Virus record (IMG/VR): IMGVR_UViG_3300027868_000010
Coordinates: 1-54,626 of that record
DNA from: a virus
Length of the DNA stretch: 54,626 bases
Direction: 5' to 3' (one strand)
A program made the translations under genes and the position numbers. How positions within the stretch are numbered: the stretch's first letter is position 1; the number at the start of each line of letters is the position of its first letter. This document shows positions 1,233 through 54,626 of the stretch, one piece after another. Below the pieces are notes generated by a model, which worked only from the letters and a program-made list of their open reading frames with translations, searched no databases and had not been told where the DNA came from.

Positions 1233-2633
1233 ATGGCAAAGCGCCGCGTCCGAGTCAAAGCTGGTTCCCCCCGATCTCCTGGTCGCCCCCTCGCAATTGA
1301 AGGGGAAGCGATGGTCGTAGACGGTGAAGTCGTCCGCAGCTTCATGCCCGCCGGAAAAGGCGGAATGGAGTTCATGGGCGTCGACACCCTGATCAATCGC
1401 AAGGGCTGGTCGATCTACCGAGATATGAAGCACGACGATCAGGTCAAGGCGACATTGGCCTTCAAGAAGATTTTGATCCATGGCAGGTCATGGGAGATGA
1501 AGCCCGCAGTAGCAGAGAACGAAGAGGCTGAAAAAATAGCCAAGTTCGTCAAGCACAACCTCGAGCGGATGAATTTCAAGGAAGTAGCTCGCCAGGGGCT
1601 GTCCGCGCTGGAATTCGGCTTCTCTGCCGGCGAGATCATCTGGGAGGTCGGAGAGTGGGAAGGAGACAAGGCCCTGCTCATCAAGGCGATCAAACACCGT
1701 GATCCGGAGACAATCAAGATCATTGCGGATAAACACGGGAATATCAGCGAATTCAGGCAGGACAGCAAGACCGGGGACAAGATCAGCTTGCCGCCGAACA
1801 AGATTTGGCATTTTGCCCATCAGAGTGAATTCCAGAACCACTACGGCGTATCGGACCTTCGGGCGGCATATCGCAATTGGTGGGCCAAAAAGTTCCTGAT
1901 CAATTTCTGGAACGTTTTCTTGGAGCGGCTTGGCTCTCCCATGACAATGATGAAATATCCGTTGGGCGCGTCCGACGAACTGAAACGACTTCTGAAAGGT
2001 ATCCTGACTGGGTTGTCCGCGAAATCGGAAATCCTAGTGCCCGAGGGCGTGGAAGTCGAATTAATCGAGGCAACTCGGTCAGGAACCGCGACCTATCAGG
2101 AAGCACTCCAATATCACGATAACGCCATATCGCGTGCCCTGCTCGTCGTCGCCCTGCTTGGGGCGGGCGGATCAGACGTGACACGTGGTGCGGACAGCCA
2201 ATCACGTCTCCAATTGCGCGTGCTCTTCAAAATGGCGGACGAACTTGGCAAACAGCTGATGACGACGTTTTCCGAACAGGTGATCAAAAATCTGGTCGAC
2301 ATGAACTTTGAGCACGACAACCTGTATCCCACGTTTATCTGGCAGGACTATGGCGAATTCGAGGGGATAGAAGTCGCCGACACGATCCGGCTGCTGCACG
2401 CGGCGGGAATGGTTGACATGGACCAGGAGGACGTAAATTACGCAAGAAGCATTCTCGGACTACCACTACGAAAGGAAGGTGATCCAGAAGACGAAGTTGT
2501 TCGCCCGCAACCCTTGCCGCCGCCCGCCGATCCGAATAAGCCGCCCCCGAGCGCATCGCAAGGCAACCAAAGCGCCGACAAGGGTGCGGGTGGCAATCGT
2601 GCTACCACCCCAGCAAAAGGGGCAAAGAAATGA
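1233..2633 (+). CDS. Portal protein (Mu gp29-like, DUF935)
   Basis: This 466-residue protein would form the dodecameric ring at the head vertex through which DNA enters and to which the tail attaches. The sequence resembles the DUF935/Mu gp29 portal family: an N-terminal region with KHDDQVKATLAFKK, the central segment with LPPNKIWHFAHQ and GVSDLRAAYRNWWAKKF, and a long helical part around residues 290-370. The tail beyond residue 420 is Pro/Gly/Lys-rich and probably disordered. It follows the large terminase, the usual neighbour. The start has AAGGAA at a good distance. Residues 353-371 (NLVD plus MNFEHDNLYPTFIWQ) are partly repeated in an unrelated small gene at 48952. The stop overlaps the next start (ATGA). 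Confidence 0.88.
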   Translation: MAKRRVRVKAGSPRSPGRPLAIEGEAMVVDGEVVRSFMPAGKGGMEFMGVDTLINRKGWSIYRDMKHDDQVKATLAFKKILIHGRSWEMKPAVAENEEAEKIAKFVKHNLERMNFKEVARQGLSALEFGFSAGEIIWEVGEWEGDKALLIKAIKHRDPETIKIIADKHGNISEFRQDSKTGDKISLPPNKIWHFAHQSEFQNHYGVSDLRAAYRNWWAKKFLINFWNVFLERLGSPMTMMKYPLGASDELKRLLKGILTGLSAKSEILVPEGVEVELIEATRSGTATYQEALQYHDNAISRALLVVALLGAGGSDVTRGADSQSRLQLRVLFKMADELGKQLMTTFSEQVIKNLVDMNFEHDNLYPTFIWQDYGEFEGIEVADTIRLLHAAGMVDMDQEDVNYARSILGLPLRKEGDPEDEVVRPQPLPPPADPNKPPPSASQGNQSADKGAGGNRATTPAKGAKK

Positions 2634-45617: not shown

Positions 45618-45787
45618 AGATCGCCACATATAAATGCCACTGCGGACACAAGTGGGAAGCCGAGGTCGAAGGCGGCACCATGCCCCTCAAACACAATAAG
45701 GTCCATTCGGACAAGTGCCCGGCGTGTGGCAGTATATATTTCGCCTGGACGAACTACCTTTCATCATTCGTGGGGAGACCATCGTGA
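45614..45787 (+). CDS. Small zinc-ribbon protein
   Basis: This 57-residue protein has two Cys pairs, YKCHCGHKWEAE and DKCPACGSIYFAW, the pattern of a zinc ribbon. Such ribbons bind nucleic acid or partner proteins. Its last residues lie in the first copy of the 116-base tandem duplication, but its own stop at 45785-45787 is unaffected. Start overlaps the previous stop (ATGA). Confidence 0.65.
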   Translation: MKIATYKCHCGHKWEAEVEGGTMPLKHNKVHSDKCPACGSIYFAWTNYLSSFVGRPS

Positions 45788-45992
45788 AGGAATTGCCAAT
45801 AGCGGCGTGCCGGTTATGCGGCGAGGAATTTCGGCAGAAACGCAACGATCAGAGGTTCTGTGAGACGGCGTGCCGGTCATCATTCGTGGGGAGACCATCG
45901 TGAAGGAATTGCCAATAGCGGCGTGCCGGTTATGCGGCGAGGAATTTCGGCAGAAACGCAACGATCAGAGGTTCTGTGAGACGGCGTGCCGG
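45761..45992 (+). repeat. Perfect 116-bp tandem duplication
   Basis: Bases 45761-45876 are repeated without a visible difference at 45877-45992. The unit holds the end of the zinc-ribbon gene and the start of a treble-clef-type zinc-finger gene. As 116 is not a multiple of three, the first copy of the zinc-finger start runs into a stop soon after the repeat boundary. Perfect identity means a very recent event or an assembly error. Confidence 0.93.
45784..45903 (+). pseudogene. Truncated copy of the zinc-finger gene
   Basis: This 39-residue frame starts at GTG in the first repeat copy (GGGGAG in front), includes the full Cys set CRLCGEEF...RFCETAC, then reads the repeat boundary out of frame (RSSFVGRPS) to a stop. 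It is a by-product of the tandem duplication. It might still fold as a zinc finger without its C-terminal half. Confidence 0.7.
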
Positions 45993-47954: not shown

Positions 47955-47977
47955 AAGGGGGCTTCGGCCCCCTTTTT
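47955..47977 (+). terminator. Strong rho-independent terminator
   Basis: AAGGGGGC (47955-47962), the stable loop TTCG and GCCCCCTT (47967-47974) are followed by a T-run ending at 47977. This is the best terminator in the genome and ends the long small-gene operon before the AT-rich repeat region. Confidence 0.92.
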
Positions 47978-48240
47978 ATGTTTAACGAGACGTGAATAGT
48001 TAATGGATTATATTTGTCTAAAATGAAATCTATTCATGATTAACGAAAAGTATTTGTCTAAAATACAATCTATTAATGGTTAATTAAAATTATTTACCTA
48101 AAACTTTAATTGAAAGCAATCTATTAACCCTATCAAACCCTAAACTACCGATAAAATTTACATCAAATCAAATCTATCGGTCAACACTTTTTTATGGTTA
48201 AAATTTCGTTAATTCGAAAATTTATTTTCGCATATATATA
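47978..48240. other. Candidate replication origin: AT-rich non-coding region with iterons
   Basis: About 260 bases without a credible gene, strikingly AT-rich against the flanks. It contains 40-base direct repeats (48011-48120), a 7-base inverted repeat ACCGATA/TATCGGT (48147-48153 and 48175-48181) and CGAAAAT-TT-ATTTTCG (48215-48230), then a CATATATATAG stretch that could be a -10. Repeats plus an easily melted tract between two operons is the usual build of a phage origin. A GapR-like protein that prefers AT-rich DNA is encoded by this phage. Confidence 0.6.
48011..48120 (+). repeat. 40-bp direct repeats (iterons)
   Basis: Copy 1 (48011-48050) and copy 2 (48051-48090) start with TATTTGTCTAAAAT and agree at 33 of 40 positions by eye. 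Copy 3 starts at 48091 with the related TATTTACCTAAAAC and contains CAATCTATTAA slightly later. The shared cores are TATTTGTCTAAAAT and AATCTATT. The exact 40-base spacing (nearly four helix turns) places copies on one face of DNA, suited to binding an initiator. Confidence 0.75.
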
Positions 48241-48731: not shown

Positions 48732-48955
48732 TGAGAAAATTGTTTGAAATTGCAAACGATATCGATAAAAATTGGCCGAAAGTATATTTCGGCGCGCGCC
48801 CTTATTTACAAGCGATGATATCAATGGAAAATATCACCGATGATTATGGCGCAGATAGCGGTAAATCGATTGTAATGTACTTCCTTGCCAACGCACAAGC
48901 ATGGCGTGGCGAGCACGCGCGCCGGATCAAAACAGAATTAAAGGGTATGTTATGA
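48731..48955 (+). CDS. Conserved small phage protein
   Basis: This 74-residue protein has YFGARPYLQAMISMENITDDYG and IVMYFLANAQAWRGEHARRIKTEL, a pattern I know from many phages in which it is conserved without known function. It overlaps the previous stop (TAATG) and the next start (ATGA). Its usual neighbour is the protein that follows here, which supports both calls. Confidence 0.75.
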   Translation: MRKLFEIANDIDKNWPKVYFGARPYLQAMISMENITDDYGADSGKSIVMYFLANAQAWRGEHARRIKTELKGML

Positions 48956-49356
48956 GCTATGATGTTTCACTTTTAATCGATACAGGCTCGGATGAATTGC
49001 ATGAAATATGGACGGGGAATTTCACGTCGAATTGTGCCCGGATGTTCGATCTTGCGATAGGCGGACTGGGGATACTAGATGGAATGATGGCCGATGACGC
49101 GTGGCATATTCTCGTCGTCGGCGTTAAGAGAATGGAAGTATGCAGGGAAACGAATATACATTCGGCCAGATACCTTGCATTAAACCCTGGCAATATGAAC
49201 TTTGAACACGACAACCTATATCCCACATTTATCTGGCAAATAATCGAAAATCTGGTCGACGCATGGGGAGATAGCATATCCGCGCAAGACTTTTTACGTT
49301 CCATCCTGGAACAATGTGAGAAACATCCGGACGCGAGAATAAAAGTAATATCCTAA
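48952..49356 (+). CDS. Conserved phage protein with a portal-derived insert
   Basis: This 134-residue protein has the frame of a widespread small phage family: MSYDVSLLIDTGSDELHEIW, NFTSNCARMFDLAIGGLGIL, DGMMADDAWHILVVGVKRM and the C-terminal SILEQCEKHPDARIKV. Relatives usually read NPxNGWGD in the middle. Here NPGN and WGD are split by about 23 residues, of which MNFEHDNLYPTFIWQ (82-96) and NLVD (100-103) are the same as portal residues 357-371 and 353-356, in swapped order. The insert keeps the frame and occupies a likely surface loop, so the protein may still work. Confidence 0.75.
   Translation: MSYDVSLLIDTGSDELHEIWTGNFTSNCARMFDLAIGGLGILDGMMADDAWHILVVGVKRMEVCRETNIHSARYLALNPGNMNFEHDNLYPTFIWQIIENLVDAWGDSISAQDFLRSILEQCEKHPDARIKVIS
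49195..49260 (+). repeat. Portal-gene fragment inside an early gene
   Basis: 49195-49239 matches portal bases 2301-2345 at 41 of 45 positions; all four differences are G (portal) to A (here) at third codon positions and silent. 49247-49260 repeats portal bases 2287-2300 exactly. In the portal the second piece lies before the first; here it lies after it. Confidence 0.88.
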
Positions 49357-50096: not shown

Positions 50097-50322
50097 TGTT
50101 TCGCCATATATAACTCGCGCCCTGGAACGAGCCGAAAAACATCCAACTATTGAGGAATGGAATAATGCGAAAGTTACTAAGTGTATCCGTCGACGCGAAA
50201 ACGATCAAATCAATCGGCAAGGGAGTGTTAACCGGGATTTTATACCTTGCCCCGGGGCGCTTATCGGGTCGAGAAGTTTGCCCCATGGCTTCCGCCGGTT
50301 GCTTAAAATCTTGTCTGTATAG
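50086..50322 (+). CDS. Small protein overlapping the GP88-like gene
   Basis: An ATG at 50086 opens a 78-residue frame. Residues 1-26 (MPNDVSPYITRALERAEKHP) look like a real protein start; after about residue 27 the DNA is shared with the next gene in another frame for 158 bases and the sequence becomes Arg-rich. The gene may be real with an unconstrained tail, or its true stop was lost. ATGs on both sides are only 79 bases apart. Confidence 0.4.
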   Translation: MPNDVSPYITRALERAEKHPTIEEWNNAKVTKCIRRRENDQINRQGSVNRDFIPCPGALIGSRSLPHGFRRLLKILSV

Positions 50323-51275: not shown

Positions 51276-51426
51276 CCCTATAGGGGGATTTTAAAAAGTA
51301 AAATATACCCACACTTTCGTGAGTATAACTTATTTCTAGCTTACATAGTAGCTAAGGGATTATGGGGTTTATATACCGTAGGTTATACAGATAACAATTA
51401 TATCTTAGAATTCCCCTATAGGGAAT
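51276..51426 (+). promoter_or_regulatory. Composite regulatory element R2 upstream of the terminase block
   Basis: Parts in order: the perfect palindrome CCCTATAGGG (51276-51285), the 27-base block (51305-51331) identical to 1086-1112 with the dyad TATACCCAC-n6-GTGAGTATA (one mismatch), and the interrupted palindrome AATTCCCCTATAGGGAAT (51409-51426). It is the sister of element R1 at 1054-1191. It likely governs the block starting at 52013. The CTATAGGG core recalls T7 promoters, but no phage RNA polymerase gene is present. Confidence 0.6.
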
Positions 51427-53994: not shown

Positions 53995-54626
53995 GAAAGC
54001 ATACGAGTATTGGCGGAACAATCCGGTCGAAGCGATCAAGGATTGGTTCAACGTCACCCCCGAGGACTATCAGGCGGATGTCCTCAACGGTCTCTTCGTT
54101 GGCGGAAAAGATCGCGTTGCCGCAAAGTCTGGACATGGAGTGGGGAAGACGACGACGCTCGCTTGGGCGGGATGGATTTTCCTGAACCTCTGGCCTCAAT
54201 CGCGTGTCGTATCAACCGCGCCGACTTTCGCTCAGCTACACGACGTTCTATGGCCGGAATACGCAAAATGGCACGTGCATATGCCAGCAGGGCTTGCAGC
54301 ACAGTGGGACATCTCTGGGGGTCATATTCGGAACAAAGCTCACCCGAAGACATGGTTCGCAGTCGCTCGCACCTCGAACAAAAGTGCCAACCTTCAGGGG
54401 TTCCATAGTACCGACATAATGGTGCAGGGAGACGAAGCATCAGCAATTCCTCCGGACGTGTTTGAAGTCATCGAGGGTATTATGTCAGATGCAGGGGAGC
54501 AAGATCAAGTCGCAAAGCTCCTGCTCACCGGAAATCCGAATTTCACGTCTGGAGAGTTCTACAACGCTTTCCACCGGAATGCGGCCCTGTATGAGCTATT
54601 TACGATCTCAGGCGATCCCAAGATCA
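53978..54626 (+). CDS. terL: Terminase large subunit, N-terminal part (continues at base 1)
   Basis: The ATG at 53978 opens the packaging motor gene, which runs off the right end and continues at the left end. Walker A is SGHGVGKT (residues 51-58), Walker B is IMVQGDEAS just at the join, and STAPTFAQLHDVLWPEY is the conserved segment after Walker A in ATPases of this type. Residue 175 differs between the two copies of the terminal repeat (Gln here, Lys at the left). It overlaps the small gene before it by 17 bases. Confidence 0.92.
   Translation, partial: MSTKSEKAYEYWRNNPVEAIKDWFNVTPEDYQADVLNGLFVGGKDRVAAKSGHGVGKTTTLAWAGWIFLNLWPQSRVVSTAPTFAQLHDVLWPEYAKWHVHMPAGLAAQWDISGGHIRNKAHPKTWFAVARTSNKSANLQGFHSTDIMVQGDEASAIPPDVFEVIEGIMSDAGEQDQVAKLLLTGNPNFTSGEFYNAFHRNAALYELFTISGDPKI
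54438..54626. repeat. Terminal repeat of the assembly, right copy
   Basis: This stretch repeats bases 1-189, with the single difference C54500 versus A63. It lies inside the large terminase gene and lets the contig be closed. Confidence 0.93.

Follow-up and report, generated by a model that had tools for sequence, protein, structure and literature searches.

Phage and cellular genomes are generally known to contain short templated duplications that arise by illegitimate (microhomology-mediated) recombination. Diversity-generating retroelements constitute another known arrangement: they consist of a template repeat and a variable repeat, with template adenines substituted by any base, and a reverse transcriptase gene is located nearby. 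Here, we describe a phage genome in which a small early gene, unrelated to the portal gene, carries within a conserved motif an in-frame, rotated copy of a 66-base piece of the portal gene. The whole stretch of DNA analysed, 54,626 bases long, is called the window below.

A rotated portal fragment inside an early gene

The features concerned, all on the plus strand, are as follows.

1233 to 2633, plus strand: donor gene, encoding a Mu-like portal protein of 466 aa (Pfam Portal_Mu, E=2e-61; phrog_113 portal, E=2.9e-76)
2277 to 2280, plus strand: CAGG, left copy of a 4-bp microhomology, 66 nt from the right copy
2280 to 2345, plus strand: donor segment, portal residues 350-371, VIKNLVDMNFEHDNLYPTFIWQ
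2343 to 2346, plus strand: CAGG, right copy of the microhomology, 66 nt from the left copy
48952 to 49356, plus strand: host gene of the insert, encoding a 134-aa protein of an uncharacterised phage family (phrog_8795/phrog_4019-like); its start overlaps the upstream stop (ATGA)
49183 to 49194, plus strand: 5′ half of the family motif, NPGN, AACCCTGGCAAT
49195 to 49239, plus strand: first piece of the insert, MNFEHDNLYPTFIWQ, copied from portal 2301-2345, 41/45 identical
49240 to 49260, plus strand: second piece of the insert, IIENLVD, copied from portal 2280-2300, 18/21 identical
49261 to 49272, plus strand: 3′ half of the motif, AWGD, GCATGGGGAGAT; the family consensus is GWGD

At 49195-49260, 66 nt (22 codons) repeat portal codons 350-371 (2280-2345) as an exact circular permutation, with 59 of the 66 bases identical. 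The insert begins with the last 45 nt of the donor and continues with its first 21 nt, no base being lost or duplicated, and in the portal gene the two pieces adjoin exactly, at GAC/ATG (2300/2301). After rotation, 20 of the 22 residues are identical to those of the portal. In a self-BLAST of the window, the 45-nt match (E=3.5e-11) was the sole strong dispersed repeat having both copies within genes. A degenerate pattern of the shared peptide occurs twice in the window, and in none of 100 shuffles. For the second piece, where VIKNLVD has become IIENLVD over 7 codons (18 of 21 nt), the runner-up site on either strand of the window reached 16 of 21.

The copy and the portal are separated by 7 differences, all of them transitions: 5 are silent, and 2 change an amino acid (V>I and K>E), both in the 21-nt piece. 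The 4 differences between 2301-2345 and 49195-49239 are all silent third-position G>A changes (GAG>GAA, CTG>CTA, ACG>ACA, CAG>CAA). A preliminary description of this DNA had reported a portal piece in swapped order within the small gene, as well as these 4 silent changes. Both observations stand, and the first can be tightened to an exact permutation of 66 nt. The extent needed correction, as the donor had been given as residues 353-371 instead of 350-371, and the second piece as NLVD alone instead of 7 codons; the two amino-acid changes had escaped notice.

Within NLYPTFIWQ, the window portal and the copy agree in the N and the I, where the three other portals closest to it read G/L, G/L and D/L. 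Because these residues are absent from those three portals, the copy most likely derives from the lineage of this phage, after its split from the three relatives. No other IMG/VR contig with the copy or the rotated junction was found. Searched by its DNA pattern, the peptide was detected elsewhere in IMG/VR only in a contig 99.9% identical to the window (L003), where it lies in the portal; one further DNA match (L008) was inside an unrelated AT-rich phage gene. The rotated junction WQ[VI]I was found in no IMG/VR portal, its matches being two unrelated proteins, and was not found in genome_contigs. Nor was such an insertion found described in the part of the literature covered.

The window contains other repeats. 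A 189-base terminal direct repeat with one mismatch (1-189 and 54438-54626, 99.5%) suggests a circularly complete or terminally redundant assembly. A 60-bp repeat, 87% identical (1057-1116 and 51277-51335), is present in two copies only, one preceding the portal gene and the other the 51838 gene; its 26-bp identical core, TACCCACACTTTCGTGAGTATAACTT, can form a 10-pair hairpin, and the repeat is perhaps a shared promoter or terminator signal. In a small zinc-finger-like ORF region, positions 45761-45992 form an exact 116-bp tandem duplication (2.0 copies, 100% identical, frames shifted), which is either very recent or an assembly product. At 48000-48183, where the AT-rich early region begins, there are AT-rich repeats with a unit of about 40 bp (2.3 copies in tandem and one diverged); a strong terminator-like hairpin, at 47955, lies just ahead of them. 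Rfam and tRNA scans gave no matches.

As a base rate, self-BLAST of a non-random sample of about 1.0 Mb of phage DNA yielded 46 same-strand dispersed repeats, many of them from one locus (L071). An ORF check covered the repeats outside L071 and L113: most were not within paired long ORFs. A close look at 4 of the dispersed repeats revealed no clear in-frame transfer.

The recipient gene and its family

Relatives of the 48952 protein were gathered by motif pattern, a selection that biases the motif, and the 76 IMG/VR stretches obtained were used to build a family HMM from which the window protein was excluded. The HMM recognised the 48952 protein (E=1.6e-12) in two stretches, one on each side of the insert. 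Profile positions 1-76 end at the N of NPxN and positions 78-105 begin at the W of WGD, and between them lie exactly the insert and one residue (A for G). The continuous N-x-W-G motif of the family is split here into NPGN, 22 aa and AWGD, the insert being placed exactly between the N and the next motif position.

Relatives were also regathered by tblastn without any motif requirement. All 9 of those checked have a continuous N-[GHRK]-W-G and no insert, and the motif-selected relatives inspected are likewise continuous. Since every relative checked reads a continuous motif, the insert is unique to the 48952 gene as far as seen. The preliminary description had stated that relatives usually have such a continuous motif and had deduced that recombination inserted the portal fragment; the 9 relatives, found without motif bait, bear out the former and support the latter.

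Because the profile matches while the N-x-W-G motif is interrupted, the 48952 protein is, judging from its sequence, a derived homologue of the phrog_8795/phrog_4019-like family and a non-canonical member of it. The match to phrog_8795 was weak (E=0.0069) and covered residues 104-133, beyond the insert. A Pfam scan of the protein revealed no domain, Portal_Mu included, its portal part being the 22-residue fragment alone, and a search with its own sequence found no relatives. The empty-site pattern NPxNAWGD was encountered in 2 places, neither of them a convincing family member (one had a marginal HMM score), and none of the relatives reached via the neighbouring gene at 50228 carried a small-family gene by HMM. 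Annotations of family members are nearly all hypothetical or absent. A second length difference lies near the insert, at 49141-49182: ahead of NPGN, within CRETNIHSARYLAL, the 48952 protein is about 6 residues longer than the family.

An AlphaFold2 model of the 48952 protein (37 sequences) reached a mean pLDDT of 86.6, and more than 95 in the core. Residues 81-90, at the start of the insert, had a pLDDT of 53, and the remaining insert was part of a single helix, 92-124. Judging from this model, the fold seems to be maintained, the insert being placed between a loop and the last helix. A fold search with the model gave no PDB match better than E=0.68, and matches in BFVD were to uncharacterised viral proteins only. 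The portal model, with a mean pLDDT of 32, was unusable for comparing peptide conformations.

Origin and fate of the insert

We think it probable that a single, rare illegitimate recombination event, or a short chain of events, took place in the phage's own lineage, in which a circle or tandem unit was inserted, and that the peptide is tolerated baggage. End-to-end joining of the 66-nt portal segment at the two CAGG copies would have given either a short-lived tandem duplication or a small circle cut out of the DNA. A single unit of this product, cut between GAC and ATG, would then have been blunt-inserted into the early gene. As the length of the insert (66 nt) is divisible by 3 and its phase was by chance the right one, the gene stayed open. 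The 22 residues may have been accommodated as a flexible loop running into a longer last helix, leaving the core fold intact, and the silent differences would be due either to changes that the copy underwent later or to a donor portal that had already diverged slightly.

By a simple calculation, the chance of finding a microhomology of at least 4 bp at the donor ends is about 0.016. The seam inside the insert, WQ followed by [VI]I, is the one expected from joining the CAGG copies; it now reads CAAATA, and as CAGG is not intact in the copy we infer the use of the microhomology from the present portal. At the insertion point, no homology beyond chance was found (P=0.16). The rotation at 2300/2301 is exact, with neither loss nor gain at the seam, as expected for the insertion of a circle or tandem unit; under two independent insertions it would be a coincidence.

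The same order could be produced without a circle, if a polymerase working on the early gene switched to the portal ATG at 2301 and read as far as the CAG at 2345, where slippage at CAGG moved it 66 nt backwards; after a further 21 nt it would have gone back to the early-gene template. This template switching predicts the order observed and finds its slip site in CAGG/CAGG, but nothing in the route requires the exit to fall on exactly the entry base (2300/2301), which becomes a coincidence, and no significant homology that might have guided the switch was found at the target (P=0.16). We regard it as rather unlikely and prefer the circle or tandem unit, of which no intermediate portal form was found in IMG/VR.

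Did selection keep the peptide, as had been proposed in the preliminary description, perhaps as a mimic or binding surface for portal partners? A modest excess of silent changes speaks in favour: 5 of 7 are silent, against an expectation of about one third for transitions (P=0.045 for at least 5 of 7), and in the 45-nt piece 4 of 4 (P=0.012). The open frame and both motif halves have also been kept. A peptide that binds a portal partner (portal subunit, terminase or scaffold), or that competes with portal assembly, e.g. as a decoy or superinfection factor, would fit these observations. However, a constrained donor portal that diverged before copying would leave the same pattern. Conservation also applies to the portal, whose relatives vary at the same silent sites (GAG/GAA, CTG/CTA, ACG/ACT/ACC, CAG/CAA), and for this reason the silent bias, which is weak (p about 0.01-0.05), cannot be assigned to the copy, donor-portal constraint being equally possible. 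Furthermore, 2 of the 22 residues have changed, and the insert is known from a single sequence, no other phage having been found with it. As for mimicry, no evidence emerged: the model has low confidence for half of the insert and shows the remainder as helix, and a rotated peptide cannot reproduce the local chain order of the portal. A selected new function is on these grounds quite improbable. We give equally little credence to its fuller version, in which the phage domesticated a rotated portal peptide, by way of a 66-nt circular intermediate, as a portal decoy or assembly regulator within an early accessory protein. Tolerated baggage, rather than a selected mimic, is most likely what the peptide represents.

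A shift of the copy to the local AT-rich usage had also been suggested, and in that form the suggestion is not supported. GC3 does fall, from 0.77 in the donor segment to 0.55 in the insert, towards the 0.47 of the gene flanks (0.66 in the portal), but silent G>A changes occupy 5 of 6 possible sites and silent C>T changes 0 of 11 (Fisher p=0.001). Since drift should have affected both kinds of site, simple drift to AT-rich usage is not the cause. G>A without C>T amounts to a strand asymmetry, resting on few sites, that the accounts considered here leave unexplained.

It is very unlikely that the insert is an artefact, either of assembly, with reads of two strains joined, or of chimeric amplification. 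No coverage of the early gene was seen in L003, the contig of 99.9% identity, and the exact 116-bp tandem repeat in the same contig is possibly an assembly product. Nevertheless, the insert has 7 differences from the only portal of the contig, keeps the frame on both sides, and interrupts a family member that is normal in other respects and that the HMM matches on both sides of it, and after a misjoin the sequence would not normally resume in the same gene with the very next codon. That the two families share ancestry in the common stretch, or converged there, is practically out of the question, with 89% DNA identity between otherwise unrelated proteins, and is refuted by the relatives of the small protein, which lack the stretch; the same peptide was looked for in distant members of both families and not found.

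Comparison with known systems

Here a phage genome has preserved a short ectopic copy as a clean fossil, and the exactness of the rotation points to an intermediate, circular or tandem, of merely 66 nt. Such a route is seldom visible, because most scraps of this kind break the frame and are lost. Coding scraps of one gene can join an unrelated protein, and are a possible source of new peptide modules. If the domestication reading were true, a new gene function would have come from a transplanted fragment of a structural gene.

With the phrog_8795/phrog_4019 family, the 48952 protein has in common its size, the N-terminal MSYD strand, the NxTxN segment, the NPxN...WGD motif (split here) and the C-terminal HPxAxxxV segment. 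It differs from the NPxNGWGD type by the 22-residue portal-derived insert in the motif, and by G>A and Y>S directly after it. The Mu-like portal (Portal_Mu, phrog_113) gave the 66 nt, but only 22 of its 466 residues are present, in rotated order, and the early gene is unrelated to it.

As in diversity-generating retroelements, one phage genome harbours two near-identical copies of a coding segment. A repeat pair of that type was considered and rejected, as the differences are 7 transitions, 5 of them silent, the order is rotated, and the recipient is not a receptor-type variable gene; no reverse transcriptase was found among the window proteins scanned, a subset of the ORFs. Templated short duplications resemble the locus in having a short ectopic copy, a donor elsewhere in the same genome and a short microhomology. 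Unlike these, the insert lies within a conserved motif, keeps the reading frame of the donor and is an exact circular permutation.
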